Source of the DNA: a virus
Virus record (IMG/VR): IMGVR_UViG_3300031974_000461
Location: 1 to 24,690 of that record
Length of the DNA: 24,690 bases
Strand: one strand, 5' to 3'
Shown here: in pieces, positions 672-23,105 of the stretch
How positions within the stretch are numbered: position 1 is the first letter of the stretch
Layout of the letters: every line of letters begins with the position of its first letter
The notes under the pieces: generated by a model
What the model was told of the DNA's origin: nothing
Database searches by the model: none
The model's input: the letters and a program-made list of their open reading frames with translations, nothing else
Translations under genes and position numbers: made by a program

Positions 672-697
672 TTGAAAAATTTTGAGTGGTACTGATT

Positions 698-1282
698 ATG
701 AAACCTAAAGAAAAACCTCACTACGTTAGCAATAAAGATTTCTCTCAAGCTGTACTGGAGCACTGTACTAATGTACAAGAAGCTAAGAGTGCTGGCGATC
801 CTTTACCAATTGTTCCAGACTACATCGCAAGTTGTTTTCTAAAGATTGCAGAAGGTCTATCTCACAAGGCGAACTTTGTTCGTTACACGTATCGTGAAGA
901 GATGGTTATGGACGCAGTGGAGAACTGCCTCAAAGCGATTGAGAACTACAATATTGAAGCGGCAACCCGATCGGGTAAACCTAACGCATTTGCGTACTTC
1001 ACACAGATTTCTTGGTACGCGTTCCTGCGACGTATCCAGAAAGAAAAGAAACAGCAAGATATCAAGATGAAGTTTATTTCAGAAGCAGATATCAGTGAGT
1101 TCTTGGACGACGACACAGTATCACATCTAAACCAAACATCTCCTTTCGTGGACAATCTCCGTATGCGTATTGATGCAGTAAAATCTGCAGACGATGAATT
1201 CAAAGAGTATGCAAAGGAAGAAAAGAAACGAAAACGCAGGGCAGTATTCGTAGACTCAGACCTATCAGATTATCTTGACTAG
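698..1282 (+). CDS. 55: gp55, sigma factor for late transcription
   Basis: Homologue of T4 gp55, the small sigma-like protein that directs host RNA polymerase to phage late promoters. The product is 194 residues, close to the T4 protein. Recognisable parts are YVSNKDF near the N-terminus and the conserved core with YREEMVMDAVENCL, NAFAYFTQISWYAFLRR and IQKEKKQQD. The protein ends in DLSDYLD; in T4 the gp55 C-terminal tail binds the gp45 clamp, coupling late transcription to replication. The ATG at 698 is chosen over an in-frame GTG at 686 because GAGTGG lies 8 bases upstream and it gives the family-like N-terminus. No late-promoter cluster was recognised with confidence in this window. Confidence 0.93.
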   Translation: MKPKEKPHYVSNKDFSQAVLEHCTNVQEAKSAGDPLPIVPDYIASCFLKIAEGLSHKANFVRYTYREEMVMDAVENCLKAIENYNIEAATRSGKPNAFAYFTQISWYAFLRRIQKEKKQQDIKMKFISEADISEFLDDDTVSHLNQTSPFVDNLRMRIDAVKSADDEFKEYAKEEKKRKRRAVFVDSDLSDYLD

Positions 1283-4174: not shown

Positions 4175-4855
4175 ATGGAACTATCTAGTCGTACGGTTGA
4201 GATCTTGCGAAACTTCTCAACTATTAATCCAAACATCGTAGTCAACGGAGGTAATGTCCTTAAGACTATGTCCATCGCTAAGAACATCGTCTCTCGTGCA
4301 GAAGTTGAAGAAAACTTCCCTAGTACGTTTGGCATCTATGATCTCTCTGAGTTCTTGTCCGTTCTTTCTTTGGTTGATAATCCATCTATCACTTTTGACA
4401 AAAGTTACTGCACTGTTTCTGACGGCAGTGGACTATCTTCTGTCAAGTACTTCTACTCTGACCCAGAGATGCTTTCTGCGCCTAAGAAAGACATCATCAT
4501 GCCTGAGTGCGAAGTCAAGTTTGTGTTGACTAATGAAACACTTGCTAAGATCAAGAAAGCATCTGCTGCTCTTGGTTACGACACAATTTCTATTCGTCCT
4601 TCAGGTGCGGGCAGTGTAGAAATCCGAGTTGTTGATGTTGAAGACTCTACATCAAACTCTTTCTCAGTGTTGGTTGAGGGTTCTTTCCCAGAAGACACTG
4701 ATTTCAATTTCATTATGGGCGTTGGTAATATGAAACTGCTTGGTGAAGACTATGATGTTTCTATTTCAACAAAACTCATTTCTCATTTCCGATCGTTAAC
4801 ATCGGACACACAATACTTTATCGCACTTGAAAAGTCATCAATTTACGGAGGATAA
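4175..4855 (+). CDS. 45: gp45, DNA polymerase sliding clamp
   Basis: Trimeric sliding clamp that tethers gp43 to DNA and also activates late transcription through gp55. At 226 residues it is almost the T4 length. The assignment rests on overall similarity (an N-terminal segment with FSTINPNIVVNGGNVLKTMS, the FGIYDLSEFLSVLSL strand, the C-terminal YFIALEKSS) and on its place after gp47/gp46 and before gp44/gp62. GAGGA precedes the ATG at good spacing. It has its own consensus promoter, consistent with the high demand for clamp. In T4, gp45 is directly followed by gp44; here a cargo block lies between them. Confidence 0.93.
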   Translation: MELSSRTVEILRNFSTINPNIVVNGGNVLKTMSIAKNIVSRAEVEENFPSTFGIYDLSEFLSVLSLVDNPSITFDKSYCTVSDGSGLSSVKYFYSDPEMLSAPKKDIIMPECEVKFVLTNETLAKIKKASAALGYDTISIRPSGAGSVEIRVVDVEDSTSNSFSVLVEGSFPEDTDFNFIMGVGNMKLLGEDYDVSISTKLISHFRSLTSDTQYFIALEKSSIYGG

Positions 4856-6238: not shown

Positions 6239-7183
6239 ATGAGCAATGAATTTCTTTGGGTTGAAAAATATCGTCCACGTAAAGTCTCTGAGACGATTCT
6301 ACAAAAAGAACTAAAGACTACTTTTCAAAACATCGTAGATGGTGGAGAGATCCCCAACATGATGTTTACTGGTACTGCGGGTACTGGTAAGACCACAGTT
6401 GCGAGAGCAATCTGTGAAGAACTAGATCTAGACTACATCGTAATCAACGGATCTGAAGAAGGCAACATTGATACACTACGAGGAAAGATCAAGCAGTTCG
6501 CCTCTTCAGTTTCGTTGTCCGGTGGGTACAAAGTCGTCATTCTAGACGAAGCAGACTATCTTAATCCACAATCAACGCAACCGGCACTGCGTGGGTTCAT
6601 AGAAGAATTCTCAAACAATTGTCGTTTCATTATGACATGTAACTTTGAGAACCGAATCATTGAACCGTTACACTCTCGGTGCACAAAGGTCGCGTTCAAT
6701 ACGAATAAGAAAAGTCTACAGTCTCTCTCTGCAGAGTTTATGGCACGTGCGATGAATATTCTGCAGAATGAAGGTGTTGAGTACCATAAAGACATGTTGG
6801 CGCAAGTCATCATGAAGTACGCTCCGGACTGGCGACGTGTTTTAAATGAACTGCAGAGGGGATCCATCTCTGGTACTCTGAGTACGATTCCATCAAGTGA
6901 TGAGTCTGTTCTAGATCCTTACAGTCAATTGTTCACTGCAATTCGTGATAAAAACTTCAAGAAAATGAGATCGTGGGTTGTCAATAATATTGACGTTGAA
7001 CCCGCGTCAGTGTTTCGTGGTCTTTATGATCGGATGTATGATCATGTAAACCCAAACAGTATTCCGCAACTCGTATTAATTCTTGCGGACTACCAATATA
7101 AAAATGCGTTTGTGGCTGACCACGAACTTAACTTGGTCGCCTGCCTCACTGAGGTCATGGCAAACGTAGAGATTAAAGCGTGA
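6239..7183 (+). CDS. 44: gp44, clamp loader ATPase large subunit
   Basis: AAA+ ATPase that, as a tetramer with one gp62, opens and loads the gp45 clamp. The 314 residues show Walker A GTAGTGKTT (45-53), Walker B ILDEADYL (D103-D106) and the arginine-finger motif SRC (146-148). The N-terminus FLWVEKYRP is the classic clamp-loader opening. Length is near T4 gp44 (319). The TGA stop overlaps a GTG start for the following sulfotransferase-like gene, so that unrelated-looking gene is translationally coupled to the clamp loader. Confidence 0.96.
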   Translation: MSNEFLWVEKYRPRKVSETILQKELKTTFQNIVDGGEIPNMMFTGTAGTGKTTVARAICEELDLDYIVINGSEEGNIDTLRGKIKQFASSVSLSGGYKVVILDEADYLNPQSTQPALRGFIEEFSNNCRFIMTCNFENRIIEPLHSRCTKVAFNTNKKSLQSLSAEFMARAMNILQNEGVEYHKDMLAQVIMKYAPDWRRVLNELQRGSISGTLSTIPSSDESVLDPYSQLFTAIRDKNFKKMRSWVVNNIDVEPASVFRGLYDRMYDHVNPNSIPQLVLILADYQYKNAFVADHELNLVACLTEVMANVEIKA

Positions 7184-7839
7184 TTAATAGCACCAAATAT
7201 TATGAGATGTCTCCTGCAGACAACGTACTGTACTTTCCAAACAATATTGATGTAAGACTCTGCCCTAAGAACGGCATGTCTTCGTTAAAAGAGTTGCACA
7301 GATTGAATCGTGGAGTTGATGAGTACATTGGTCGTATTGACCGAATCAGAAAGGTAAGAGAACAGGGTGATCAGTTTGACATCCCGTTTCGCAAAGGTAG
7401 TTATCGCATCGCAGTAAGACGCGACCCTATTGTAAGATTTCGTTCTGCGTGTGAGTATATCGTCGCAAATCAAGCTGAGTATATTAAACAAGGTAGAATT
7501 GATGAGCTGCCTTCAATGGACGAAGAACTTGATGTAGTTCTAGATAAGATTGAAGCAGGCACACTGAAGAACAACCACTTCTATACGCAGTCTTGGTATA
7601 TGGGTAAACCCGAAGACTATGATATGGTAGTGTATATTGACGAACTGTCGCGACTTATGGTATTTTTAAACGATGCGGCAGATCTGGGATTTGACGAAGA
7701 AACGTTAAATATTCACGATAACAAATCTCAATTGAAAGTATACAATAGCATTCTAACAGACCGTCAACGTCAAAGAATTAAGACATTGTATCGTAAAGAT
7801 TATGATAATGGGTGGTGTAAAATTGAAGACAGAACTTAG
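7180..7839 (+). CDS. Sulfotransferase-like protein (PAPS-dependent family)
   Basis: A 219-residue protein resembling the Sulfotransfer_2 type of carbohydrate sulfotransferases. The putative 5'-phosphosulfate loop is CPKNGMSSLK (residues 28-37, compare PKxGxTSLK). The putative 3'-phosphate motif is RDPIVRFRSA (81-90), with the expected Arg and Ser eight positions apart. An YTQSWYMG segment and VYIDELSRLMVFL follow, as in the family. The target cannot be told; a host or phage surface glycan is the usual guess. The GTG start (7180) overlaps the gp44 stop; an ATG at 7207 is possible but would remove little. It sits between gp44 and gp62, which are adjacent in T4, so it is an insertion into the clamp-loader operon. 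It also overlaps the gp62 start region. Confidence 0.65.
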   Translation: MINSTKYYEMSPADNVLYFPNNIDVRLCPKNGMSSLKELHRLNRGVDEYIGRIDRIRKVREQGDQFDIPFRKGSYRIAVRRDPIVRFRSACEYIVANQAEYIKQGRIDELPSMDEELDVVLDKIEAGTLKNNHFYTQSWYMGKPEDYDMVVYIDELSRLMVFLNDAADLGFDEETLNIHDNKSQLKVYNSILTDRQRQRIKTLYRKDYDNGWCKIEDRT

Positions 7840-8215: not shown

Positions 8216-8612
8216 TCTAGTCCAGTGGAACTCCGACATGATGTTAGAAATCACGTTGGCAGAACCAGATGACTTTTTAAAAGTCAGAGAAACCCTAACA
8301 CGAATAGGTGTTGCTTCACGTCGCGACAACACTCTATTCCAATCGTGTCATATCTTGCATAAGCAGGGTAGATACTTTATCGTACATTTTAAAGAGCTGT
8401 TCTTGTTGGACGGCAAGAAATCAAATCTAGAAGTTTCAGACATGGAACGTCGTAACACGATCGCAACCCTATTACAGGATTGGGGTCTTGTGTCAATCGT
8501 AAATAAAGATGTCGCACGTGACTGTGCGCCAATGAGACAGATCAAGATCATCTCATACAAAGACAAGTCCAATTGGAACTTGCAGCCAAAGTATAACATT
8601 GGGAATAACTAA
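8202..8612 (+). CDS. regA: RegA translational repressor
   Basis: RNA-binding repressor that blocks ribosome access on many early mRNAs, including clamp and clamp-loader messages in T4. Strong match: EITLAEPDDFLKVRETLTR, then FQSCHILHKQGRYFIVHFKE, LLQDWGLV and a C-terminal PKYNIGN, as in T4 RegA. With the GTG at 8202 (AAGGAAAAGG upstream) it is 136 residues and has about 12 extra residues compared with T4. ATG 8238 or 8241 would give the T4-like N-terminus but has a weak ribosome site. It overlaps gp62 by 14 bases. Order gp44, gp62, regA, gp43 is conserved apart from insertions. Confidence 0.94.
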   Translation: MEENNLVQWNSDMMLEITLAEPDDFLKVRETLTRIGVASRRDNTLFQSCHILHKQGRYFIVHFKELFLLDGKKSNLEVSDMERRNTIATLLQDWGLVSIVNKDVARDCAPMRQIKIISYKDKSNWNLQPKYNIGNN

Positions 8613-9160
8613 TGGCTACTGAACATTATGGAATTTTTGATGGTAGAGAGGACAACATTGGAACTAAGACTCCTTTCGTAGGTGAACTCCCATTTAATAT
8701 GGAAGAGACTTACAATTGGGTTCAGTTCATGAATATGATGGACTCTCATCCAGACGAATTATATGATCGTAACTCTGATAAGATGCGTATAGGTCTTAAC
8801 AAGTTTCATACTCGCGGTAGTTCTCCGGAGTTTGCTAAAAACATTTACGCTGAGTTAGAAGATGTATTTTCTCTTCACTCAGATAAAAGAAATATAACAA
8901 ATATTGCATTTAGCGGATTTGGTCGTGATAGCGGTTCTTATCCATGGCATAAAGACTCCATGGATGTATTTTTAGTACAAGTTATTAGTACTGTCGGTCT
9001 CAAAGTAGAAGGCATCAATAACGAAGAACCGTTTGACTTTAAACCAGGGATGTACGTTTATTTGCCAAGGGGCACTCATCATCAGGTGTTCCCTAAAATC
9101 TCACGAGTATCATTCTCGTTTGGTATTGAAGGAGACCCAGACCCGTCTATGTACTACTAA
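8612..9160 (+). CDS. JmjC/cupin-like 2-oxoglutarate Fe(II) oxygenase
   Basis: A 182-residue protein with a cupin core resembling JmjC or ribosomal-oxygenase enzymes. The likely metal site is H113 and D115 in YPWHKDSMDVF plus a distal histidine in LPRGTHHQVF (156/157). The MYVYLPRGTHH stretch is characteristic of this fold. Such enzymes hydroxylate protein or nucleic-acid substrates using 2-oxoglutarate and oxygen; the substrate here is unknown. The ATG overlaps the regA stop (TAATG), so it belongs to the clamp-loader/regA operon. A non-catalytic cupin is possible, but the three putative ligands are intact. Confidence 0.6.
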   Translation: MATEHYGIFDGREDNIGTKTPFVGELPFNMEETYNWVQFMNMMDSHPDELYDRNSDKMRIGLNKFHTRGSSPEFAKNIYAELEDVFSLHSDKRNITNIAFSGFGRDSGSYPWHKDSMDVFLVQVISTVGLKVEGINNEEPFDFKPGMYVYLPRGTHHQVFPKISRVSFSFGIEGDPDPSMYY

Positions 9161-10124: not shown

Positions 10125-10925
10125 ATGAAAGCAATACAAATTGTCATCAAAGGAGACGAACGGTCTGAAGAGTACGCTGCACTCTCCCGTCAGTCTTTTC
10201 AACGCGCCATCGACGAAGGTTACATTGACTCTATTGAAACCTTTGACGCCATCACGCCAGAGTCAGACAACTTTCAAGAACATGTAGATAAGTACGTCTG
10301 GTCTAAAAGTCTAATGACTCTAGACACTAGATCTGGAAAGAACAAAGAAGATCATTCGCCTACAGAGAAAGCGGGAATGTGTTCTCACTGGGAACTCATG
10401 CGTCAACAAGGGCAGTCTGAAGAAAAGTTTTGGATACTAGAACACGATACGTGGATGATAGACCATCGTTACGAAGCGTTCAAACTGCTCACTGAGTACG
10501 CAGAAAACACGCTCTACGCAAACATAGGCCTGTTTATGGGTATGTACTGCATGGACCCTAGTTTTGCACACTGGGGTCACCACATGCTCGTAAACAACGC
10601 ATTCCCAATCAACTGCGGACCTTACTGTGTAATACAACGTCTTTTCAGAACATATACCACTAGTCATTTGGCGCTACCTGAGATTGATTACTATGGGATC
10701 AAAAACACTGCTTTACATCCATGGGGCGAGTGTGATACTATTGGTGTTGGTCGCGACATTGGAATATACTTCAATTATAAAGACCAATATAAGTCAGGCA
10801 TCCCAACGCCAACAACTCAGTTGATTTCAAAACGTCTTTGTGTGACACAAGACCACCACGGATACAAAGACAAACACATTGAGGAACCTTGGACAAGACA
10901 TTCCTTTTTTCATGTTATAGATTGA
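10125..10925 (+). CDS. Glycosyltransferase-like protein (resembles GT25)
   Basis: A 266-residue protein with the layout of GT25 (LPS/procollagen galactosyltransferase-type) enzymes. It has an N-terminal strand with IVIKGDERSEEY, a FDAITPES segment, EKAGMCSHWELMRQ (compare the family's SHxxxW region), and FWILEHDTWM in the place of the family's LEDD metal motif. The acidic motif is therefore altered to EHD. The acceptor could be a glycan or, given its neighbour TAGT, a base already carrying a sugar; neither is shown. ATG 10125 has GGTGAG upstream. Its TGA stop lies within the -35 of the next promoter. The family assignment is tentative. Confidence 0.45.
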   Translation: MKAIQIVIKGDERSEEYAALSRQSFQRAIDEGYIDSIETFDAITPESDNFQEHVDKYVWSKSLMTLDTRSGKNKEDHSPTEKAGMCSHWELMRQQGQSEEKFWILEHDTWMIDHRYEAFKLLTEYAENTLYANIGLFMGMYCMDPSFAHWGHHMLVNNAFPINCGPYCVIQRLFRTYTTSHLALPEIDYYGIKNTALHPWGECDTIGVGRDIGIYFNYKDQYKSGIPTPTTQLISKRLCVTQDHHGYKDKHIEEPWTRHSFFHVID

Positions 10926-10950
10926 CAGGTCAAGGTTTTTATTATATAAT
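10922..10950 (+). promoter_or_regulatory. Consensus sigma70 promoter for the TAGT gene
   Basis: Perfect TTGACA (10922-10927) and TATAAT (10945-10950), 17-bp spacer. The -35 contains the TGA stop (10923-10925) of the preceding gene. The start codon at 10957 is only 6 bases after the -10, so the transcript would be leaderless or nearly so. Confidence 0.8.
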
Positions 10951-10956
10951 ACCTCT

Positions 10957-11808
10957 ATGACTCATAAATCGTTAGAAATTTTTGCAAGTGATCTTCTAAA
11001 GAATCTTGAGAAATATCAGAGCGTAGATCACCCCATTTACATACCTTCAAAAAGTCGCCCCAGAAAGATCACGTCTCAGGCACTTGAGGATGTTGGCATC
11101 TCAAAGTATCTTGTCGTCGTAGAACCTCAAGATTATGATGAGTATCTTTCTGTGTATGATTCTTCTAATCTTCTGTGTATGGATCAGAACGACATGGGCA
11201 TTCAATACGTCCGTAACTTCTGTAAAACACACTCTCGTGATCTCGGGTTTGACTATCATTGGCAGATAGACGACAACATCCGTGACTTTCGTGTACGTAA
11301 GAACAATAAGAATGTGCGAGATAACGCTCGCAACTTAATGTCTGCTGCTGGCGAGTATATGAAAAGATATGACAATATCGGCATCTTAGGTTTCTGTCAT
11401 GTGGGGTTTGCATTTGCCAAGACAAACTCAGTTGATGTGAACAAACAGGTATACAGTTGCGTTCTTGTTAATAACACACTAGACATTGAGTGGCGTCCAG
11501 ACGTAGTTGAAGATACTGATTATAGTCTGCAAGTTCTTGAACAGTCTTACTGCACACTTCTTCTGAATACTTTCTTGATCGGCAAAGAGACGACCAGCAC
11601 GAACTCCGGCGGCAATGATAACTCAGACGAATGGCGTATGGTCAGATCAAAGGGTCTACAGAAGTACTGGCCCGGCGCGTTCAAGATTACAGAACAGTAC
11701 GGCAGAGTCAAAGTGCAACCATCCAAGATCTGGAGAAGATATACTCATATGCCAAAAGGCAGAAATGAAGACCTCAACTCAAATAATTTAGATGAGTTTT
11801 TCGCTTGA
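10957..11808 (+). CDS. TET-associated-type glycosyltransferase (TAGT), putative DNA-base glycosyltransferase
   Basis: A 283-residue GT-A-like enzyme matching the TAGT family, predicted to add sugars to modified bases in phage DNA. Visible signatures are PIYIPSKSRP (26-35), VVVEPQDYDEY (53-63), NDMGIQYVRNF (78-88), HWQIDDNIRDF with the putative metal-binding D105-D106, CVLVNN, EDTDYSLQVL (185-194) and NTFLIGK...SGGN (to 220). RMVRSKGLQKYWPG near the C-terminus also fits. It ends in NLDEFFA, very like the C-terminal clamp-binding peptide of the polymerase encoded next. No hydroxymethylase or TET gene is seen here, so the acceptor base is unknown. It has its own promoter with an almost leaderless start. 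Family call is confident; biochemical role is inferred. Confidence 0.78.
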   Translation: MTHKSLEIFASDLLKNLEKYQSVDHPIYIPSKSRPRKITSQALEDVGISKYLVVVEPQDYDEYLSVYDSSNLLCMDQNDMGIQYVRNFCKTHSRDLGFDYHWQIDDNIRDFRVRKNNKNVRDNARNLMSAAGEYMKRYDNIGILGFCHVGFAFAKTNSVDVNKQVYSCVLVNNTLDIEWRPDVVEDTDYSLQVLEQSYCTLLLNTFLIGKETTSTNSGGNDNSDEWRMVRSKGLQKYWPGAFKITEQYGRVKVQPSKIWRRYTHMPKGRNEDLNSNNLDEFFA

Positions 11809-11834
11809 CACTATACACCAAATTGGTATATAAT
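11805..11834 (+). promoter_or_regulatory. sigma70-type promoter for gp43 with an internal dyad
   Basis: TTGACA (11805-11810) and TATAAT (11829-11834) with an 18-bp spacer. The TGA stop of the TAGT gene (11806-11808) is inside the -35. A 21-bp imperfect palindrome centred on 11822 (ACCAA-A-TTGGT core, TATA flanks, 11812-11832) fills the spacer and overlaps the -10. The ATG at 11842 is 7 bases after the -10. Confidence 0.78.
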
Positions 11835-11841
11835 CCCCTAC

Positions 11842-14316
11842 ATGACTAAATTCTATACGAATGTTCGCCACATCGGCAACAATATCCTGTATCGCGGGTA
11901 CGACAATGGTCAACAGATCAAGACTCGCGTTCCCTTTAAACCAAAACTCTATGTGACCGGCGAATCAAAATCTGATTGGCGAACACTTGATGGTAACTCT
12001 GTCATGGAGATGGAGTTTGAGACAATGAAAGAAGCGACTGAGTTTACTCAACGGTATCGCGATGTCTCTAACTTTAAAGTGTTCGGTCAGAACAACTATG
12101 TCGCTCAGTTCATCTCAGCTTACTGGCCAGATGAAATCAAATTTGAACGTGAACAAGTCCGCGTTTTGAACATTGATATCGAGGTGGCGTCTGATGACGG
12201 ATTTCCAGAACCGAGATCTGCAAAGCATCCTATTATCTCTATCGCTCTTCGCAAGAACGACGGCAACTACTGGGTGTGGGGTCTCAATGACTACACACCA
12301 TCTCGTGAAGATGTTCTCTTTATCCGTTGCGACAATGAGATGGATCTCATTCGCAAGTTCGTAGATCACTGGATCACTTACTCGCCTGATATTATCACTG
12401 GATGGAACACACGATTCTTTGATATCCCGTACATCGTCAACCGATGTTACAATCTCTTCGGTGACGACACGTTAGTAAAACGTCTGTCACCATGGGGTCT
12501 CGTGCGCGAGAGAATTCAGAAGATCAACGGTCGCGAGAACCAAGAGTATGTCATTGAAGGTATTGACCATCTTGACTACATTGAAATCTTCAAGAAGTTC
12601 ACACTCAATACGCTCGGACAGCAAGAGTCGTATCGCCTTGACCACATCGCACATGTCGTCCTCGGTGAGCGAAAACTCTCGTACGAAGAGCATGGTAATC
12701 TGCACACACTGTACCGAGAAGACTATCAGAAGTTCATAGATTACAACGTGAAAGACGTTGAGTTGGTGCACAAGATAGATGAGAAGCTAGACCTAATCTC
12801 TCTGGTACTGACTATGGCGTATCGTGGCGGTGTGAACTACACAGACACTCTCGGCACGACTGCGATCTGGGATTCAATTATCTATCGTATGTTGAACAAG
12901 CAGAAGATCGTGATCCCGCCCAAGACAGAGAAACCCAAGACTCCATATCCTGGCGGGTATGTCAAAGAACCTCAAGTCGGTGCGCATGACTGGGTGACCT
13001 CGTTTGACCTGAACTCTCTCTATCCGAACATCATTGTGCAGTACAATATGTCACCCGAGACTGTGGTTGACGGCATTGTCCCTGATGTCTCTGTTGAAAG
13101 TTTCTTAGACGGCACAACAGTAAATGACTCTGAGTACTCGCTCGCACCCACGGGTGTCAGGTTCTCGCACGATCGTAAGGGTGTGATTCCGCAGATCATT
13201 GAACAGTACTATGCGGAACGTCGGATCATCAAAGACAAGATGCTAGAACTTGATCGTGAGTATCAGAAGAACCCAAGCAAGTCTTTGCAGTACAAGATCA
13301 CATCACTAAATAATCAACAGATGGCGATTAAGATTCTGATGAACTCACTCTATGGCGCTCTGGGCAATAAGTGGTTCCGATACTTTGATCAGCGAGTCGC
13401 CGAGTCTATCACCATGGCTGGTCAGTTGGCCATTAAATGGGCAGAGAGGGCAGTAAACAATGAGATGCAAAACATTCTCAAAACAGATGAAGATTACGTT
13501 GTGGCAATTGACACAGATTCCGTTTATATCCGAATGGGTGATCTTGTCAACCGTTTTAATCCCAACAATCCTGTCAAGTTCTTAGATAAGATCTGCGCCG
13601 ACCACTTTGAGAAATCGCTCGCCAAATCATATGCAGAGATGGCAGAGATCACTGGTGCCTATATCAACCGCATGGAGATGGGACGTGAGGTCATCGCGGA
13701 CCGTGGCATTTGGATGGCGAAGAAGAGATATATTCTCAACGTTTGGAATAACGAAGGGGTGCAATACTCTGAAGCCAAACTGAAGATGATGGGTATTGAA
13801 GCGATCAAGTCGTCTACTCCGCAAGTCGTCCGCGACAAGTTCAAAGAGATCTTCCGCGTGATCATCGAAGGCACCGAGTCTGACACTCAAGCGTTTATTC
13901 GTGACTTTCGTACGGAGTTCAGTAATCTACCTCCAGAAGATGTGTCGTTCCCTCGCGGTGTGTCAGACCTGAACAAGTGGCAAGATCGTAAGACAGTCTT
14001 TAAGAAAGCATGTCCTATTCATGTGCGCGGCGCACTGTGTTATAATAATGCGATAAAAGAAAACGGTCTTGAATCGCGATATGAGTCTGTGAAGACTGGC
14101 GAGAAAATCAAGTTCTGTTATCTCAAGGTCCCCAACAGTCTAGGTCAGAACGTCGTGAGTTATCCACTCAATCTGCCACCAGAACTCAATCTGCACAAGT
14201 TTGTGGATTATAGTGTGATGTTTGACAAAACGTTTTTAGATCCTCTTGAGCCCATTCTTGACGCTGTCGGATGGGAGTCCGAACCGAAAGCGACACTTGA
14301 AGACTTCTTCGGTTGA
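11842..14316 (+). CDS. 43: gp43, family B replicative DNA polymerase
   Basis: Replicative polymerase with 3'-5' proofreading, 824 residues (T4 898). Exo I is [11 protein letters not shown] (D112, E114), Exo [16 protein letters not shown] and Exo [12 protein letters not shown]. Pol motif A is [11 protein letters not shown] (D389), motif [10 protein letters not shown] (497-505) and motif [10 protein letters not shown] (D557, D559). All catalytic acids are present. The protein ends in TLEDFFG, corresponding to the gp45-binding C-terminal peptide of T4-type polymerases. It is intact, with no intein or split. Its stop codon is embedded in the -35 of the dam promoter. Confidence 0.98.
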
Positions 14317-14341
14317 CACACGGACTCTGTTATAGTATAAT
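14313..14341 (+). promoter_or_regulatory. Consensus sigma70 promoter for the Dam-like gene
   Basis: TTGACA (14313-14318), 17-bp spacer, TATAAT (14336-14341). The gp43 TGA stop (14314-14316) is part of the -35. ATG 14348 lies 6 bases after the -10, again suggesting a leaderless message. Confidence 0.8.
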
Positions 14342-14347
14342 ACACGT

Positions 14348-15232
14348 ATGAAAGATCTAAAAACACCTTTAAGATATCCTGGTGGCAAGTCGCGAGCAGT
14401 TGACTTTCTATTCTCACGTGAGAATCTACCTGTCAAAAACATTAAAGAGTATCGCGAGCCGTTTCTCGGTGGTGGATCTTGCGCATTTGCTTTCACTAAA
14501 AAGTTTCCTGATATTCCTGTGCGAGTCAACGACAAGTACTATAATCTGTATTGCTTCTGGCTGACTCTACAGAAAGAAGGCGATGCACTTACTCAGAAAC
14601 TTCATGATATCAAAGACGAACTGCTCAGTGCGTCTGACCCTAAACAAGCACACTATGACTATTATCATGTTGTGACGGACGTGCTTGCAAACCCTAAGAA
14701 TGAGTTTGAGACTGCATGGGCATTCTATATTCTCAATCGGTGTTCTTTCTCTGGTCTCACAGAGTTGTCTGCATCATTCTCTAAGGGTTCTTGCTTTGAT
14801 CATTTTCATCACAGACTGATCGGCAAACTCCCCAAGTACTCTAAACTCATGCAGAACTGGACGATCACTAATGAAGATTACTCCACAATGTTCTGTGACG
14901 ACCCTGACGTGTTTGTGTTCTGTGATCCGCCTTATGATATTGCCACTTTCATCTATGGTAAGGGTGGTGACATGCACAACACATTTGACCACAAAGAGTT
15001 CTTTGAGTGTACTGACGCGTCTGGTAATATGGTCATGATCACCTACAACTCAAACGACACACTGCAAGAAGCATACAAGAACTGGAATCAAAAGATCTGG
15101 GATCTGGTATACACAATGGTGTCAAGTGCATCTTATCGTGAGAACGAGCATCTAAAGAAAGAGTTGCTTATCTGGAACTACGAGACGCCTGAAGCAATAC
15201 CAAAACAGACTCTTGAAGAATTTTTTGTTTAA
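14348..15232 (+). CDS. dam: Dam-type DNA adenine N6-methyltransferase (D12 class)
   Basis: A 294-residue MethyltransfD12 enzyme (pfam MethyltransfD12), probably methylating adenine in GATC or a similar site. The SAM-binding RYPGGK motif is at 9-14, FLGGGSCAF follows, and the catalytic DPPY is at 193-196 in FVFCDPPYDIATF. ILNRCSFSGL and SFSKGSC are typical of the central target-recognition region. Length is near E. coli and T4 Dam. The C-terminus ends in QTLEEFFV, almost the same as the polymerase tail LEDFFG, suggesting binding to the gp45 clamp. No matching restriction endonuclease is present. It probably protects phage DNA from host nucleases or marks replicated DNA. Confidence 0.92.
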   Translation: MKDLKTPLRYPGGKSRAVDFLFSRENLPVKNIKEYREPFLGGGSCAFAFTKKFPDIPVRVNDKYYNLYCFWLTLQKEGDALTQKLHDIKDELLSASDPKQAHYDYYHVVTDVLANPKNEFETAWAFYILNRCSFSGLTELSASFSKGSCFDHFHHRLIGKLPKYSKLMQNWTITNEDYSTMFCDDPDVFVFCDPPYDIATFIYGKGGDMHNTFDHKEFFECTDASGNMVMITYNSNDTLQEAYKNWNQKIWDLVYTMVSSASYRENEHLKKELLIWNYETPEAIPKQTLEEFFV

Positions 15233-15234
15233 CG

Positions 15235-15269
15235 ATACACTTAGTGTACGATATAATACACTTAGTGTA
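15235..15269 (+). repeat. Two tandem copies of a palindrome, operator candidate
   Basis: ATACACTTAGTGTA occurs at 15235-15248 and again at 15256-15269. Each copy is a perfect dyad (TACAC-TTA-GTGTA), and the period is 21 bp, two helical turns. A TATAAT (15252-15257) lies between them without a good -35. The arrangement looks like a pair of operators for a dimeric repressor in the 90-bp gap before the primase-like gene. Confidence 0.6.
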
Positions 15270-15286
15270 TGGATCAATCAATCGGT

Positions 15287-15315
15287 TTGACAAACGCCAC
15301 ATGATGTGGTATAAT
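15287..15315 (+). promoter_or_regulatory. Consensus sigma70 promoter with a dyad filling the spacer
   Basis: TTGACA (15287-15292), 17-bp spacer, TATAAT (15310-15315). The spacer contains CCACAT-G-ATGTGG (15297-15309), a perfect 6-bp inverted repeat that abuts the -10 and would compete with polymerase if bound. Start codon at 15323 is 7 bases after the -10. Confidence 0.82.
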
Positions 15316-15322
15316 ATGTCGC

Positions 15323-16267
15323 ATGTATGAATTAACCATATTCAAAAATCAGTTTGATAACAAGACACACCGCAGAACCACGTTCATGTCGTGGATGGAC
15401 TTTGTGGTATGTCTTCGTGATTCTTACACTAAACCAGGAGAGAAAGGTGGACCCAATAGTTCTCCTCTTCTTACTCCTGCTGTGTTCGACGTGGGTACGA
15501 CGCGTAGTAATAGATCTGTTTTATATTGGAGTTCTTGGTGTTGTGTTGACGTGGATGATCCTATTCACGGTGTTACTAATAGTGAGTTACTAAGAGAGTG
15601 GTTGCATCGTAAGTATGGTCAATATGACTATGTCGTCTACAACACAGCGAGCAGTACAGAAGAGAATTTAAAATTCCGTATCATATTTCGTCTTGATGAG
15701 AATGTTGAGAATAGTCGTATCAAAGCGTTCTGGCATGCACTCAACACAGAACTCGGTGATCTTGGTGACCCACAGACGAAAGACCTTGCACGTATGTACT
15801 ATGTGCCTGCACAGTATCCGAAAGCATACTCGTTCTTCATGGTTAACTCTGGTGGCAGTGCAATGAATGTTTCTGAGTTGATTGCGAAACATCCGTACCA
15901 TGAAAAGACTGGTAATGATTTTTTAGATAAACTGCCACTTGAATTGCAACAAGCTGTAATACAGCATCGCAAAAGTAGCCTAAATAACCTGGACTATAAG
16001 TGGTCGTCTTATCGCGATTGTCCGTTTTGGCCAAAGAAACTTGCGGCTGAGTATCAGATGATTAGCGGAAGTGGTTGGTATGCTAAGATGTATCGTATCG
16101 CAGTTGCCGTTGCAGGTAATGCATACTCTAAGGGGTACCCTATCACGTCAAGACAGATAGAGGAACTGTGTCGTGAGTTTGATCGTGACACTGGTAATTG
16201 GTATGAGAACCGTCCGCTTCATGTAGAAGCAGACAGAGCACTAGAATATATTTACAGGAATGGATAA
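15323..16267 (+). CDS. Primase-like protein, possible AEP/PrimPol-type
   Basis: A 314-residue protein located among replication genes. The central part resembles archaeo-eukaryotic primase/polymerase domains: a hydrophobic strand with an acidic CVDVDD triad (74-79), then YDYVVYNTAS and a basic strand LKFRIIFRLDE. Further on is KDLARMYYVPAQYP, like the D/R...YxPG region of AEP-type replication proteins. The C-terminal third is helical. T4 itself uses a DnaG-like primase (gp61), which is not in this window. The assignment is a motif impression and a different nucleotide-handling enzyme is possible. The TAA stop overlaps the epimerase start region. Confidence 0.4.
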   Translation: MYELTIFKNQFDNKTHRRTTFMSWMDFVVCLRDSYTKPGEKGGPNSSPLLTPAVFDVGTTRSNRSVLYWSSWCCVDVDDPIHGVTNSELLREWLHRKYGQYDYVVYNTASSTEENLKFRIIFRLDENVENSRIKAFWHALNTELGDLGDPQTKDLARMYYVPAQYPKAYSFFMVNSGGSAMNVSELIAKHPYHEKTGNDFLDKLPLELQQAVIQHRKSSLNNLDYKWSSYRDCPFWPKKLAAEYQMISGSGWYAKMYRIAVAVAGNAYSKGYPITSRQIEELCREFDRDTGNWYENRPLHVEADRALEYIYRNG

Positions 16268-16268
16268 A

Positions 16269-17210
16269 ATGGAAAGAGTTTTAGTTACAGGTGCCGCTGG
16301 ATTCATTGGGTCTCAGTTGTCAAAACGCCTGATGGATCGTGGACTGACTGTCAAGGGTATTGACAATTTTAACAGTCACTTATACACTCCAGAGTTGAAA
16401 CGAGATCGTATGGTACACTTCGGTCTAGATATTTGGGGATGTGACCTACAAGACTCAATTAAGTTAGAAGCACTTTTACGTGACTTTCAACCAGACACGA
16501 TTGTGCACCTAGCTGCAATGGCAGGTGTGCGAGACTCTCTTGGCAAAGAAAAGAGTTATCACGCAAACAACATTGACGCGACACAGAATCTCATTGATAT
16601 CTGTAAAGAGCATCTTCCAGAAACACGAATCGTTTATGCGTCAACGTCATGCATCTATGCTGGCGCACCAGTGCCATGGGTAGAGGGTCGCGAACATGGT
16701 AAGCAGTTGAACGCATACGGTTATACTAAGTGGGCAAACGAATGTCAGATGCAGTCGTCTGGTCTGAACACCGTCGGTTTACGATTCTTCACAGTCTACG
16801 GACCGTGGGGTCGTCCTGATATGGCACTGTTTGATTTCACTAAAAATATACTTGACGAAAACGAGATAACCGTGTATAATTATGGTGACATGAAGCGTGA
16901 CTTTACTTACGTGGATGACATTCTAGACGGTATTGAAATCGTTCTAGACAACACAGAAATTGAGTCTGGTGAAATCTTCAACATTGGTCGTGGCGAGCAA
17001 GTTGAACTCATGGACTTTATCGGTGAGATTGAAAAGAACACTGGTAAAAAAGCAATTAAGAATTTAGCTCCTAAGCATCCTGCTGACACAAAAGAGACTT
17101 GGTCAGATACGTCTAAACTAGGCGCTCTTGGTTACAGTCCCAAAGTGAGTATCGCAGAGGGTGTTGAGAAGTTTTATGAATGGTATAAAGAATATAACGA
17201 GGTAGACTAA
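16269..17210 (+). CDS. NAD-dependent nucleotide-sugar epimerase (UDP-glucuronate 4-epimerase-like)
   Basis: An extended short-chain dehydrogenase of 313 residues. The NAD-binding TGAAGFIGSQ is at 7-16, and VHLAAMAGVRDS is typical. The catalytic YASTSCIY serine region and Y150-x3-K154 in AYGYTKW are intact. LRFFTVYGPWGRPDMALF is characteristic of the UDP-glucuronate 4-epimerase/GalE-like branch. It would interconvert UDP-sugars in the cytoplasm, probably using the product of the dehydrogenase encoded next. ATG 16269 is preferred to ATG 16260 because the AGGA at 16255-16258 is then well spaced. Exact substrate cannot be fixed from sequence; a dehydratase or decarboxylase is less likely. Confidence 0.85.
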   Translation: MERVLVTGAAGFIGSQLSKRLMDRGLTVKGIDNFNSHLYTPELKRDRMVHFGLDIWGCDLQDSIKLEALLRDFQPDTIVHLAAMAGVRDSLGKEKSYHANNIDATQNLIDICKEHLPETRIVYASTSCIYAGAPVPWVEGREHGKQLNAYGYTKWANECQMQSSGLNTVGLRFFTVYGPWGRPDMALFDFTKNILDENEITVYNYGDMKRDFTYVDDILDGIEIVLDNTEIESGEIFNIGRGEQVELMDFIGEIEKNTGKKAIKNLAPKHPADTKETWSDTSKLGALGYSPKVSIAEGVEKFYEWYKEYNEVD

Positions 17211-17211
17211 T

Positions 17212-18198
17212 ATGTCTAGAACAATGCCAAATGGCGAACCAGCACGATTCCGTATTGGCATCGTGGGTCACGGTTTTGTAGGTCAAGCAGTAGAGTATGC
17301 GTTCACGCATCCTATGGTTGATTTCTCACTGTACGATCCAAAATACAACACAAGTCTAGACGATCTGTCTTCAGCCAGTCTAGAAGAAACTCCTACTTGT
17401 TTTTTCATCTGTGCGCCGACTCCGTCAAATGATGATGGATCTGTCAACTCTTCTATTGTTGAAGATAGTGCATTGAGATGTTTGAAAGAGACAGACGCAC
17501 TTGTGATTGTTAAGTCTACAATCACTCCTGATGCGATTGACCGAATCTATCAACAGATCACTAAAGATCAAGCGGATCGTTTTGCATACAACCCTGAGTT
17601 CTTGACAGAAAAGAACGCAAAGGCAGATTTCGTATCTGCAAAGTTTCATGTGATCGGTGGCACTCCAGCGTCTGTTATGGAAACGATTGACATCTATGAG
17701 ATCTTCGGTGCATGTGAGTCTAATGATTATCACCGAATGTCTGCATATGAAGCGTCATTTGTGAAATACACGATCAACTCATTCTTGTCTACTAAGATCA
17801 CATTCTTTAACCAGTTGTATGATCTTATCAACATGTATGGTTGTAATTATAACACGGTAGTTCGCGCTGCAGGTAAAGACGATCGTGTTGGTATGGGGCA
17901 CACACGAGTCCCTGGGTTTGATGGTAAGCGTGGTTTTGGCGGCGCATGTCTTCCAAAAGATACTAAGGCGTTCTTGAGGTTCTCTACGTTTGAAGATCAA
18001 AATGGCAACGAACACTCTTTTGATCTTTTAGAAAGAGTACTTGACATCAATAGTGATTATCGTGTACAATACGAACTTGATGAGCGTGAAAAAGTAAACA
18101 ATATTACATTCGTAGATTTTGGAGGCAAGAAGAATGTCAATAATGGACAAACTGAAGAAGAACTCGAAGATAAAGGAGACGGCGACACTCTCCACTAG
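17212..18198 (+). CDS. ugd: UDP-glucose 6-dehydrogenase-like enzyme, short form
   Basis: NAD-dependent oxidation of a UDP-hexose to the uronic acid. The Rossmann motif GIVGHGFVGQAVE is near the N-terminus, and FICAPTPSNDDGS, KSTITPDA and YNPEFLTEKNA are all family signatures. The catalytic cysteine is C246 in FGGACLPKDTKAF. The protein has 328 residues; usual bacterial enzymes have about 390-450. Sequence after the catalytic loop is short, so the C-terminal UDP-binding domain seems missing or much reduced. The last 65 bases overlap the start of uvsX in another frame and encode an acidic tail. With the epimerase it could supply UDP-glucuronate/galacturonate-type donors for the glycosyltransferases. 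Confidence 0.85.
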   Translation: MSRTMPNGEPARFRIGIVGHGFVGQAVEYAFTHPMVDFSLYDPKYNTSLDDLSSASLEETPTCFFICAPTPSNDDGSVNSSIVEDSALRCLKETDALVIVKSTITPDAIDRIYQQITKDQADRFAYNPEFLTEKNAKADFVSAKFHVIGGTPASVMETIDIYEIFGACESNDYHRMSAYEASFVKYTINSFLSTKITFFNQLYDLINMYGCNYNTVVRAAGKDDRVGMGHTRVPGFDGKRGFGGACLPKDTKAFLRFSTFEDQNGNEHSFDLLERVLDINSDYRVQYELDEREKVNNITFVDFGGKKNVNNGQTEEELEDKGDGDTLH

Positions 18199-19189
18199 TA
18201 AGTTCTTCACAGAGAAAGACATGGTTCCAACTGACGTTCCGATGGTGAACGTCGCATTGTCTGGATCTGTCAATGGTGGTGTCACCCCTGGACTTACTGT
18301 CCTTGCCGGACCATCTAAACACTTTAAGACATCATTCGCCCTACTCATGGCGGGTGCATATCTCAACGCGAAACCAGAGTCAGTCATGTTGTTCTATGAC
18401 TCAGAGTTTGGTTCGCCCCAGTCATACTTTGAGCAGTTTGGTATTGACACAGATCGCGTGTTGCATACTCCGATCGCAAATGTTGAAGAATTGAAATTTG
18501 ATTTGATCAATCAACTTGAACAACTTGATCGCGATGATGACGTAATCATCGTTATTGACTCTATAGGCAACCTCGCGTCTAAGAAAGAACTTGAAGACGC
18601 ACTGAACGAGAAGGGTGTCGCAGACATGTCTCGTGCTAAGGCACTGAAGGGTCTGTTCCGAATGTCAACTCCTTATCTGACAATGAAGAACATTCCACTG
18701 CTTGCGATCAACCACACGTATAAAGAGATCGGTTTGTTTCCAAAAGATATCGTCGGTGGCGGTACAGGTATTTACTACTCTGCGGATAACATTTGGATTC
18801 TTGGTCGTCAACAAGAGAAGCAGGGCACTGAGGTTGTTGGATACAACTTCGTCATCAACGTAGAGAAATCCCGTTATGTCAAAGAGAAGTCTAAGATCCC
18901 GATTGGTGTGTCTTGGGAAGGTGGTGTTCAGAAGTATTCCGGTCTACTTGATGTCGCTCTTGCTGGTGGTTACGTTGCTAAGCCTTCTAACGGTTGGTAT
19001 CAAAAAGTTGACACAACTACAGGCGAACTCGTTGGGACTAAAGTACGAACAAAAGACACATTGAGTGCAGAGTTCTGGGAACCTGTATTTGAAACAACTA
19101 ACTTTGCAGACTTCTTGGAGAAGACCTATAAGATCGGTTACTCTAGTGAAGTCAATGCAGAACTTATAACAGAAATGGAGGAAGCATGA
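18134..19189 (+). CDS. uvsX: UvsX, RecA-like recombinase
   Basis: Phage strand-exchange recombinase, 351 residues (T4 390). Walker A GPSKHFKTS is at 59-67. MLFYDSEFGSP and the Walker B strand VIIVIDSIGN follow, and LLAINHTYKE is the L1/L2-side region typical of T4-like UvsX. ATG 18134 is chosen because GGAGG (18121-18125) is 8 bases upstream; ATG 18143 is an alternative. The gene begins inside the end of ugd, a 65-base out-of-frame overlap. Its TGA overlaps the next start (ATGA). Confidence 0.96.
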   Translation: MSIMDKLKKNSKIKETATLSTSKFFTEKDMVPTDVPMVNVALSGSVNGGVTPGLTVLAGPSKHFKTSFALLMAGAYLNAKPESVMLFYDSEFGSPQSYFEQFGIDTDRVLHTPIANVEELKFDLINQLEQLDRDDDVIIVIDSIGNLASKKELEDALNEKGVADMSRAKALKGLFRMSTPYLTMKNIPLLAINHTYKEIGLFPKDIVGGGTGIYYSADNIWILGRQQEKQGTEVVGYNFVINVEKSRYVKEKSKIPIGVSWEGGVQKYSGLLDVALAGGYVAKPSNGWYQKVDTTTGELVGTKVRTKDTLSAEFWEPVFETTNFADFLEKTYKIGYSSEVNAELITEMEEA

Positions 19190-21083: not shown

Positions 21084-21261
21084 TCCTATTTTTGATTGCC
21101 CTGTCGTAGAGACAGTGCTAGAGGGAGAGTATGCGTTTGAAATACCAGACTCTCTCTTTGATCATTTTAATTTGAAAAAAGGTGACAAAGTATCCTTTAA
21201 GCATCAAATTGGTGACAGATATTCTATGATTATTCGAAGGACTGACAGAAACGATGACTGA
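21058..21261 (+). CDS. Small SpoVT/AbrB-like swapped-hairpin protein (tentative)
   Basis: A 67-residue protein with FEIPDSLFDHFNLKKGDKVSF followed by YSMIIRR. The pattern of a strand, a short helix (IPxxLxxxxxLKKGDxV) and another strand resembles AbrB/MazE-type DNA-binding hairpins. No toxin gene partner is present. It overlaps both neighbours, and its stop region is shared with the start of the 2OG oxygenase-like gene. It could be a small transcription factor; the fold is inferred from one motif. Confidence 0.5.
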   Translation: MKNSAKKNSPIFDCPVVETVLEGEYAFEIPDSLFDHFNLKKGDKVSFKHQIGDRYSMIIRRTDRNDD

Positions 21262-21928
21262 AGTTGTAATTCGTAATAAAGAGATGTTGGAAGTACTCAA
21301 CGGATTCTCCGAAGAGATGCTATCCAAGCCGTCGTACAACGACGAAAAGTACTGGACTTATCATGAGAGAAAAGATATTGACTTGGGGTCTTACTATACC
21401 TCACGTGAGTATCTGTTAGATTGTCTCTCTCGTGATAAACTAGTTGGCCCGCCTGATCGGTATTTCGCACAACCGATAGCAAAAATGGTGCGTGAAGATA
21501 AAGAGACATGGGGAGACTTCATGCAGAAGGTCAAGTACGATTTCGCATCGGAACTTGGCGCACATACTTCTGCATTACTCTCATACTATCCTCCTGGTGG
21601 TTTCGTGGGTTGGCACACTAACTACGACGCCAATGCATATCAGATTTTGTTCACTTGGTCAGAGACTGGAGAAGGTTTCTTTGAGTACTACGATAAACAG
21701 AATGACAAAATCATTAAGATTGACGATGTCCCTGGTTGGCAATGTCGCCATTACTACTTTGGTGCAGAACAAGAAGAAGATCTGCACTGTTGGCACGCTG
21801 CATACACAGAGTGTCAACGTATCACACTTGCATATAAGTTTGTCAACAACGGGAGCATAAATAATCCTGAAGATGCGCAAGCACGTGCTTTGCGTGATAT
21901 GTTAATTGAAGACATAGAGACTCCCTAA
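21254..21928 (+). CDS. 2OG-Fe(II) oxygenase-like protein
   Basis: A 224-residue protein of a type common in T4-like marine phages. The core has YYPPGGFVGWHTNYDAN (H121), then ILFTWSETGEGFFEYYD. PGWQCRHYYFG and CWHAAYT (H181) follow, with R189 in the position expected to hold 2-oxoglutarate. The usual proximal HxD/E motif reads HTN here (N123), with D125 two residues later, so the metal site is altered or shifted. It may hydroxylate a protein or nucleic acid. Start overlaps the AbrB-like gene, stop overlaps the iscU start by one base. Confidence 0.65.
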   Translation: MTEVVIRNKEMLEVLNGFSEEMLSKPSYNDEKYWTYHERKDIDLGSYYTSREYLLDCLSRDKLVGPPDRYFAQPIAKMVREDKETWGDFMQKVKYDFASELGAHTSALLSYYPPGGFVGWHTNYDANAYQILFTWSETGEGFFEYYDKQNDKIIKIDDVPGWQCRHYYFGAEQEEDLHCWHAAYTECQRITLAYKFVNNGSINNPEDAQARALRDMLIEDIETP

Positions 21929-22302
21929 TGTACTCTGACAAAGTTTTAGACCACTACGAGAATCCACGCAATGTGGGTAAGATGGACAAAGAAGACGACA
22001 ACGTCGGAACTGGTATGGTCGGCGCCCCCGCGTGTGGTGACGTGATGCAACTACAGATACTTGTCGACGAAATCGGAGTTATCCAAGATGCGAAGTTTAA
22101 AACTTATGGTTGTGGTAGTGCTATTGCTTCTAGTTCTCTACTGACTGAATGGGTCAAGGGCAAAACTCTTGAAGAGGCAAATGAGATCAAGAACACAGAC
22201 ATTGCTTCTGAACTCGCACTACCACCAGTAAAAATTCATTGCAGTGTTCTTGCAGAAGATGCGATAAAGGCTGCAATCAAAGACTACAAAGAGAAGCACT
22301 AA
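21928..22302 (+). CDS. iscU: IscU-type iron-sulfur cluster scaffold
   Basis: A complete 124-residue IscU, the scaffold on which [2Fe-2S] clusters are assembled from sulfur given by IscS. The ligands are C36 and D38 (PACGDV), C62 (YGCGSAIASSS) and H104-C105 (IHCSVLAEDA). The LPPVK motif (98-102), recognised by the host HscA/HscB chaperones for cluster release, is intact. The N-terminus (YSDKVLDHYENPRNVG) is typical. No iscS, hscA or fdx is seen here, so it would act with host machinery. It follows an oxygenase-like gene and is coupled to the next gene (TAATG). Confidence 0.95.
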   Translation: MYSDKVLDHYENPRNVGKMDKEDDNVGTGMVGAPACGDVMQLQILVDEIGVIQDAKFKTYGCGSAIASSSLLTEWVKGKTLEEANEIKNTDIASELALPPVKIHCSVLAEDAIKAAIKDYKEKH

Positions 22303-23105
22303 TGTTATTGACCGCAGGATGCAGTTTCGTCTGGGGAGACGAACTGGAGGGTTTCGACAATGAACCACCTACTCATTGGGAACATACGTTTACGCACATA
22401 CTCGCAGAAAAGATGGGAATGCCATACGTCAATCTTGGCATGTGTGGTGCAGGTAATGATCAGATATTTCGTAGAGTAACAGACTACTTGCACGACAATC
22501 CACAATCAAACGTCACTCATATGGTTGTGCTTTGGTCTGCTTGGCAAAGAGCAGAATGGGTTGAATATCATCCCCCAGACCGAAAAGATAAAATCTTGAG
22601 ACACCTTGATGTTACTCAATTCTCCTCACTTAGAACACATAGTATTCACACAAAAAAGATTCGTGAAATGTTTGACGAATGGTATGAAAGATGTTATGAT
22701 AGTCGCACAGACGTTATGCACACACTCACTAAGATGAAAACTCTAGAGATGTTGTGTGAGTCTAAAGGTATAAAACTGATACAAGGAAGTTTTCACAAGA
22801 GAAACTACTCAAACATTATGGCTACACTTACAGACGGTGGCCCTAGAAAAGAGTTTAGAGTACACCCAGATATGGAGATAGGTAAAGTCCCTGAGTATAG
22901 ACAATGGTTGGTGGACAGTCTAGGTGCACTTAAGAAAACGAGTCGTGTAGGTATGGGGTCTTCTGGTATTATAAAAGATCTCTATACTATCGGTCTAGAG
23001 AATGATGACATCAAAGAGTTTGGTCATCCTGGTGAAATATCTAATAGACAATACGCTGATTTGCTTTTTGAAAATTTTGCTAAAATAGAAAACGGAGAGT
23101 TGTAA
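22302..23105 (+). CDS. SGNH/GDSL-hydrolase-like phage protein
   Basis: A 267-residue protein with an SGNH-like arrangement: an N-terminal TAGCSFVWGDE with the potential nucleophile serine, VNLGMCGAGNDQIFRR as a possible Gly/Asn block, and a C-terminal FGHPGEISNRQYADLL with a potential catalytic His. Between them lies a long helical insert. Members could be esterases acting on host or phage glycans, but similar phage proteins are uncharacterised. ATG 22302 overlaps the iscU stop; an in-frame start inside iscU (22239) is rejected. It ends at the start of a tiny basic gene. Confidence 0.5.
   Translation: MLLTAGCSFVWGDELEGFDNEPPTHWEHTFTHILAEKMGMPYVNLGMCGAGNDQIFRRVTDYLHDNPQSNVTHMVVLWSAWQRAEWVEYHPPDRKDKILRHLDVTQFSSLRTHSIHTKKIREMFDEWYERCYDSRTDVMHTLTKMKTLEMLCESKGIKLIQGSFHKRNYSNIMATLTDGGPRKEFRVHPDMEIGKVPEYRQWLVDSLGALKKTSRVGMGSSGIIKDLYTIGLENDDIKEFGHPGEISNRQYADLLFENFAKIENGEL

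Follow-up and report, generated by a model that had tools for sequence, protein, structure and literature searches.

A TAGT glycosyltransferase gene in the replication cluster of a marine T4-like phage, and its possible link to the sliding clamp

Gene content of the locus

The DNA analysed here, hereafter the window, comes from a marine T4-like phage, a virus of bacteria, and is a fragment of 24,690 bases (IMG/VR record IMGVR_UViG_3300031974_000461, which holds nothing beyond it). This account concerns a TAGT gene, encoding a candidate DNA glycosyltransferase, and three nearby genes for sugar enzymes. The closest annotated genome is that of Phage C48C1 (Kyanoviridae, 156 kb, OQ984149), with 79% DNA identity across the primase-uvsX part and a polymerase protein 88% identical to that of the window. 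The genes follow a T4-type replication cluster order, with gp55, gp47/46, gp45, gp44/62, regA, hsp20, the GT25-like gene, and TAGT followed by gp43, Dam, primase, the epimerase, the UDP-glucose dehydrogenase, uvsX, and gp41. The features concerned, by position in the window, are:

10957..11808, + strand: TAGT (PF20691), candidate GT-A-type DNA glycosyltransferase, from PF20691, phrog_842, and invariant motifs
11788..11805, + strand: TAGT C-terminal peptide LDEFFA, proposed gp45 sliding-clamp docking peptide
10125..10925, + strand: GT25-like putative glycosyltransferase, a clade core gene without the clamp peptide
16260..17210, + strand: UDP-glucuronate 4-epimerase-type short-chain dehydrogenase/reductase, predicted to convert UDP-glucuronic acid (UDP-GlcA) to UDP-galacturonic acid (UDP-GalA)
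17212..18198, + strand: UDP-glucose 6-dehydrogenase without the C-terminal UDP-binding domain, catalytic Cys motif present
11842..14316, + strand: DNA polymerase gp43, reference clamp client (C-terminus LEDFFG at 14296-14313)
686..1282, + strand: late sigma factor gp55, second reference clamp client (C-terminus LSDYLD at 1262-1279)
4175..4855, + strand: homologue of the gp45 sliding clamp and proposed partner for docking, identified from its place in the T4 gene order and from C48C1 CDS0024, a processivity factor by annotation
14348..15232, + strand: D12-class N6-adenine methyltransferase (Dam; PF02086, 97 bits; LEEFFV at 15212-15229)

A sequence-only reading had reported a TAGT, a GT25-like protein, an epimerase, and a UDP-glucose dehydrogenase here, and all four genes are present. 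DNA polymerase, the D12-class Dam, and primase lie between them, and the four enzymes therefore do not form one contiguous sugar operon.

TAGT and its C-terminal peptide

On sequence grounds the window TAGT is a genuine member of PF20691, scoring 110.6 bits against the family (cut-off 27.5) and 1.4e-36 against phrog_842. Its DDN (residues 105-107, D105-D106-N107) and EDTD (E185-D186-T187-D188) motifs are invariant among the 12 homologues compared, with the acidic GT-A motif and conserved EDxD likewise found in phage 65, Aeh1, and PTm1. The predicted structure is a mixed alpha/beta fold of moderate confidence (mean predicted local distance difference test score, pLDDT, 78), with chondroitin polymerase as its top Foldseek match at a non-significant E=5e-3, and a sequence search of the PDB gave no match. 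The protein is the orthologue of the ‘TAGT2’ of other marine T4-like phages. Its sister in the TAGT tree is the copy of relative G002 (68% identity, support 0.91), whose polymerase is only 53% identical to that of the window, and because the one is close while the other is far, TAGT has been transferred between lineages. The TAGT of phage T6 puts a second glucose onto already glucosylated hydroxymethylcytosine in DNA, and solitary TAGTs were flagged as unexplained in a 2026 paper on the T4 glucosyltransferases (PMC13216743).

The TAGT terminates in NSNNLDEFFA, the polymerase in TLEDFFG, Dam in TLEEFFV, and gp55 in DLSDYLD. The LxxFF peptide common to the first three resembles the T4 sliding-clamp-binding epitope, with the hydrophobic, acidic C-termini of T4 gp43, gp55, and gp33 shown to be interchangeable in clamp binding (PMC2988020), and the window TAGT may dock on gp45 via LDEFFA. 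A strict C-terminal pattern, defined after examples had been seen, matched three of the 154 C48C1 proteins (gp43, Dam, and TET), compared with 0.04 expected. A C-terminal profile trained on polymerase and gp55 termini only, and run on six near-complete relatives, retrieved 2-5 proteins per genome at p<0.001, compared with 0.17 expected by chance per genome, including the polymerase in 6/6 genomes and gp55 in 5/6. Further matches comprised TAGT2 of relative G012, TET and Dam of C48C1, an Asn-synthase-like protein of G008, a 119-amino-acid G012 protein resembling the N-terminus of DNA ligase, and three proteins of unclear meaning, one a probable baseplate protein. The G012 TAGT2 orthologue scores p<1e-5 on this profile, and LEEFFV of the window Dam p=4e-5.

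Of 84 TAGT loci, 25 have T4 core replication genes in the contig, and 15 of these show the strict C-terminus, against none of the 59 others (Fisher p=2e-10, uncorrected for shared ancestry); LxxF[FLI] ends 15 of the 17 closest TAGT2s. Among TAGTs, the conserved peptide is restricted to T4-like ones; it was not found in TAGT1, nor in those annotated TAGTs that were checked from phages of Aeromonas, Vibrio, Tenacibaculum, Pectobacterium, and Nonlabens. The same type of peptide ends homologues of Mom (4/4), the Asn-synthase-like enzyme (8/8), and Dam (17/17), TET proteins from viral contigs (14/15, the remaining TET being incomplete), several amino-acid:DNA transferase (ADDT) and GNAT proteins adjoining TET, and an N6/N4 methyltransferase and SinI-like and PD-(D/E)XK nucleases of relatives. 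It was looked for and not found in the GT25-like protein, the epimerase, the dehydrogenase, primase, and C5-methyltransferases, and since the C5-methyltransferases of the polymerase-flanking hotspot lack it, modification enzymes do not all share the peptide. A clamp-bound DNA glycosyltransferase has precedent, as T4 alpha-glucosyltransferase (alpha-GT) co-purifies with gp45 (Sommer 2004, as cited in PMC13216743).

Sugar-nucleotide genes, donor, and acceptor

The GT25-like protein itself matched nothing in Pfam or PHROG, and two of its 24 homologues match PF01755 weakly (best E 0.041). A G012 relative, 35% identical over 118 amino acids, is a 53-bit PF01755 (GT25) protein, and because of this bridge the name given to 10125-10925 in the sequence-only reading is correct, though distant. 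Its predicted structure has a mean pLDDT of 59, and a structural search gave no useful match. The G012 GT25 gene lies at position 89681, far away from the replication genes.

The epimerase matches PF01370 at 166 bits, with 5u4q and the 6zl6 group as its best solved relatives, and on alignment with these the RFFTVYGPWGRPDMA block and YxxxK are conserved. The 6zl6 group is the UDP-glucuronic acid 4-epimerase of Bacillus cereus, the subject of PMC7984243. The window protein is thus predicted to be a UDP-glucuronate 4-epimerase-type enzyme that would convert UDP-GlcA to UDP-GalA. ‘UDP-xylose synthase’ was rejected as a name for it, with solved UDP-GlcA decarboxylases ranking far below the 4-epimerase group. 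Decarboxylases have Glu at a position that is Cys in its STSCIY motif, which also counts against that name.

The dehydrogenase comprises PF03721 and PF00984 (the NAD-binding and central domains) with an intact catalytic motif, GFGGACLPKD (GFGGxCxPKD); the third, C-terminal UDP-binding domain, PF03720, was absent in the Pfam search, and the protein falls short of the NCBIfam cut-off (128 vs 190 bits). Its reading frame (17212-18198) runs into the listed uvsX start (18119-19189).

The inheritance of the four genes was followed in 68 related contigs with both the GT25-like and polymerase genes, 40 of which reach uvsX and span the locus. TAGT is present in a single contig (3300046734_000026), 1/68 overall and 1/40 among those spanning, while the GT25-like gene, epimerase, and dehydrogenase are present in 40/40. 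Judged by this distribution, TAGT is an optional, horizontally swapped cassette and the other three are clade core, and the proposal that the four genes constitute one co-inherited, dedicated system is not supported. The GT25-like gene lies <100 bases from the polymerase gene in 40/68 contigs, and in many others foreign cassettes occupy the space between the two genes, encoding methyltransferases (C5-cytosine and others), DruA, and an Asn-synthase-like enzyme; the polymerase-flanking intervals of relatives hold C5-methyltransferases, Dam, Mom, and an N6/N4-methyltransferase. Two polymerase-flanking cassettes (L102 7265-8083 and L107 2896-3765) encode Mom-family and Asn-synthase-like proteins ending in a polymerase-like peptide.

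In other TAGT lineages, TAGT is close to a primase-uvsX interval that contains a dehydrogenase and an epimerase. Two non-orthologous versions of this pair occur, type A in G012, L154, and L155, and type B in G002, G003, L010, and L014. A dehydrogenase is visible before the contig end in L013, and L011, L012, L150, L152, and L153 stop too soon past primase to be informative. Outside the clade of the window, TAGT contigs extending well beyond primase have the dehydrogenase and usually the epimerase, in the order TAGT2-epimerase-dehydrogenase in G012, and HAD-IIB (phosphomannomutase-like) and nucleotidyltransferase genes recur in the primase-uvsX interval of TAGT lineages. In two ordinary cyanophages the polymerase gene adjoins or lies near uvsX, with no dehydrogenase or epimerase found there. 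The two enzymes beside TAGT in other lineages therefore link it to UDP-uronic-acid chemistry. A uronic-type donor had been proposed from the sequence, and the dehydrogenase and 4-epimerase make UDP-GlcA and UDP-GalA the obvious candidates; that such a phage-made donor serves TAGT is plausible, at somewhat less than even chances.

Concerning the acceptor base, relatives gave mixed results for a hydroxylated-base pathway. PF00303 (the thymidylate synthase family) had no match across 27 records of relatives, many of which are fragmentary, and neither TET nor a thymidylate-synthase-family enzyme was found in G004, G006, or G008. Among annotated TAGT phages, 7/10 have an enzyme of the thymidylate synthase family (for most a family-level assignment, as candidate hydroxymethylases only) and 1/10 TET. 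Genes of G012 that are missing from TAGT-less genomes and common to other TAGT contigs comprise HAD-IIB, the TAGTs, and a few unannotated genes, among which no candidate hydroxylase stood out. Weakly 2OG-Fe(II)-oxygenase-like and JmjC-like proteins are encoded in the window at 21254-21928 and 8612-9160, with no Tet_JBP match. In C48C1 (OQ984149 49583-53030, L125), a TET/JBP oxygenase with a clamp-type C-terminus, a 344-amino-acid unknown protein, and a UDP-galactopyranose mutase form a run whose gene content makes a furanose-type DNA sugar possible. The TET gene there (49583) is some 5 kb past CDS0055 (44175), the C48C1 gene that corresponds to the end of the window. In the marine T4-like contigs L225, L229, L231, L232, L236, L238, and L239, TET occurs with GATase_6, GNAT, PF18724 (ADDT), and PF18751 (a P-loop kinase), with several of these proteins in TET contigs having clamp-type C-termini.

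Elsewhere in the window, a protein between gp44 and gp62 (7180-7839) is weakly sulfotransferase-like (PF03567, 20.4 bits against a cut-off of 22), and a weakly GDSL/SGNH-hydrolase-like protein (22239-23105) adjoins a NifU-like gene.

Interpretation and known systems

The explanation we favour, and consider probable, is that an optional, swapped TAGT docks on the clamp and glycosylates new phage DNA from a UDP-sugar donor. LDEFFA would bind the gp45 sliding clamp as LEDFFG of the polymerase does, and the docked TAGT would travel with or behind the replisome, adding a sugar to a base of the newly made DNA already modified by a hydroxylase. The donor may be host UDP-glucose, or UDP-GlcA or UDP-GalA made by the phage dehydrogenase and 4-epimerase, and the glycosylated DNA would be shielded from host nucleases. 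Because the clamp-type peptide is restricted to T4-like TAGTs and common to modification enzymes, glycosylation of DNA at the replisome is the most likely activity of TAGT, which is likely a replisome-docked DNA glycosyltransferase. The earlier suggestion that TAGT acts on DNA is probable, given its family, its clamp-type peptide, and its location next to the polymerase gene in a hotspot of DNA-modification genes.

Several observations weigh against this explanation. The epimerase and dehydrogenase occur without TAGT in 39/40 spanning contigs, and another enzyme must therefore use their product, with the GT25-like protein the natural candidate. No base hydroxylase is visible within the 24.7-kb window; C48C1 has TET and lacks TAGT, TAGT was not found in any TET contig searched, and in G012 (177 kb, two TAGTs) neither TET nor a thymidylate-synthase-family enzyme was found, a TET profile (15 contigs and C48C1) giving no match there. 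The TAGT1 partner of other TAGT lineages is lacking in the window as seen. Furthermore, the TAGT C-terminal pattern was noticed first and tested afterwards, LDEFFA of the window TAGT alone scores p=0.01 on the polymerase/gp55 profile, and for T4 alpha-GT the clamp contact is not the main determinant of glucosylation levels (PMC13216743).

The most serious competing explanation, to which we give a little less than an even chance, is that two unrelated systems overlap, with TAGT using host UDP-glucose on DNA and the core trio glycosylating either a virion protein or a polysaccharide on the host surface, superinfection exclusion being one conceivable purpose. This would account for the 40/40 against 1/40 distribution, for the distant position of the G012 GT25 gene, and for the lack of a clamp peptide in all three core proteins, and GT25 is a lipopolysaccharide-glycosyltransferase family; however, the sugar genes are located inside the DNA replication cluster, and other TAGT lineages hold a non-orthologous dehydrogenase and epimerase in the primase-uvsX gap near TAGT. 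That the GT25-like protein is itself DNA-acting in a single pathway, having replaced the absent TAGT1 or succeeded TAGT in most of the clade, appears unlikely. Whilst it is encoded directly upstream of the polymerase, near the sites of TAGT pairs around polymerase and primase elsewhere, and is always accompanied by the epimerase and dehydrogenase, it lacks the clamp peptide, its fold is putative, and the absence of TET and thymidylate-synthase-family enzymes from G004, G006, and G008 is unfavourable. Least probable of these is that the LxxFF C-termini are a compositional or ancestral feature. The motif is short, the window copy alone is weak, a probable baseplate protein also matched the profile, and binding is predicted from sequence; against this, the peptide ends many unrelated folds, most of them belonging to DNA polymerase, to the late sigma factor, or to enzymes that modify or cut DNA, its occurrence is split 15/25 to 0/59 by T4 replication genes, and T4 gp43, gp55, and gp33 use such termini.

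A broader proposal, which we regard as rather doubtful, is that marine T4-like phages share an interchangeable, clamp-plugged toolkit (TAGT, TET, amino-acid:DNA transferase, GNAT, Mom, Dam, and Asn-synthase-like enzymes) attached via the polymerase-type peptide, here combined with phage-made GalA or GlcA on a base from an unrecognised enzyme. If the clamp-docked explanation holds, the peptide would be a sequence tag flagging DNA-modification enzymes in marine T4-like phages with no need for knowledge of their families, and would suggest how DNA modification keeps up with replication. It would also narrow what the solitary TAGTs might transfer.

Among known systems, the TET-TAGT pair of Nonlabens phage P12024L shares the TAGT family and a marine phage with the window, but has TET directly upstream of TAGT, a 36-kb phage, and no clamp peptide. 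The arabinosylation module of RB69 and NP (PMC6024577, PMC13390438) similarly places sugar-donor genes, thought to supply a DNA glycosyltransferase, between DNA polymerase and uvsX, but uses other donor enzymes and a 5-hydroxy-deoxycytidine (5-hydroxy-dC) acceptor formed via a thymidylate-synthase-family enzyme, which was not found in the TAGT relatives searched. The sequence-only reading had described such T4 relatives as carrying arabinosylated hydroxymethylcytosine; the RB69 base has been corrected to 5-arabinosyl-dC (PMC13390438). It had also regarded a uronic acid on DNA as new, yet in the DNA of Bacillus phage SP-15 dihydroxypentyluracil bears phosphoglucuronate and glucose, and the SP-15 genome encodes a UDP-glucose dehydrogenase (PMC5977210), as does the window, where uronic-acid modification of DNA is no more than a possibility and the base chemistry and gene cluster differ.

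The beta-glucosyl-HMC-alpha-glucosyltransferase of T6 and T2 (PMC13216743) belongs, like the window TAGT, to PF20691 and to T4-like phages. Identity between the window TAGT and the Straboviridae homologues found is about 30–35%, and, as a further difference, no alpha-GT, beta-GT, or dCMP hydroxymethylase is seen in the window fragment. The window TAGT also differs from the annotated TAGTs checked outside the marine clade in having a clamp-type C-terminus. In this it would resemble T4 alpha-GT, likewise a clamp-binding DNA glycosyltransferase in the account of Sommer 2004 cited in PMC13216743. T4 alpha-GT is a GT-B fold enzyme unrelated in sequence to the window TAGT, whose own contact with gp45 would be made through a swappable C-terminal peptide common to unrelated modification enzymes.

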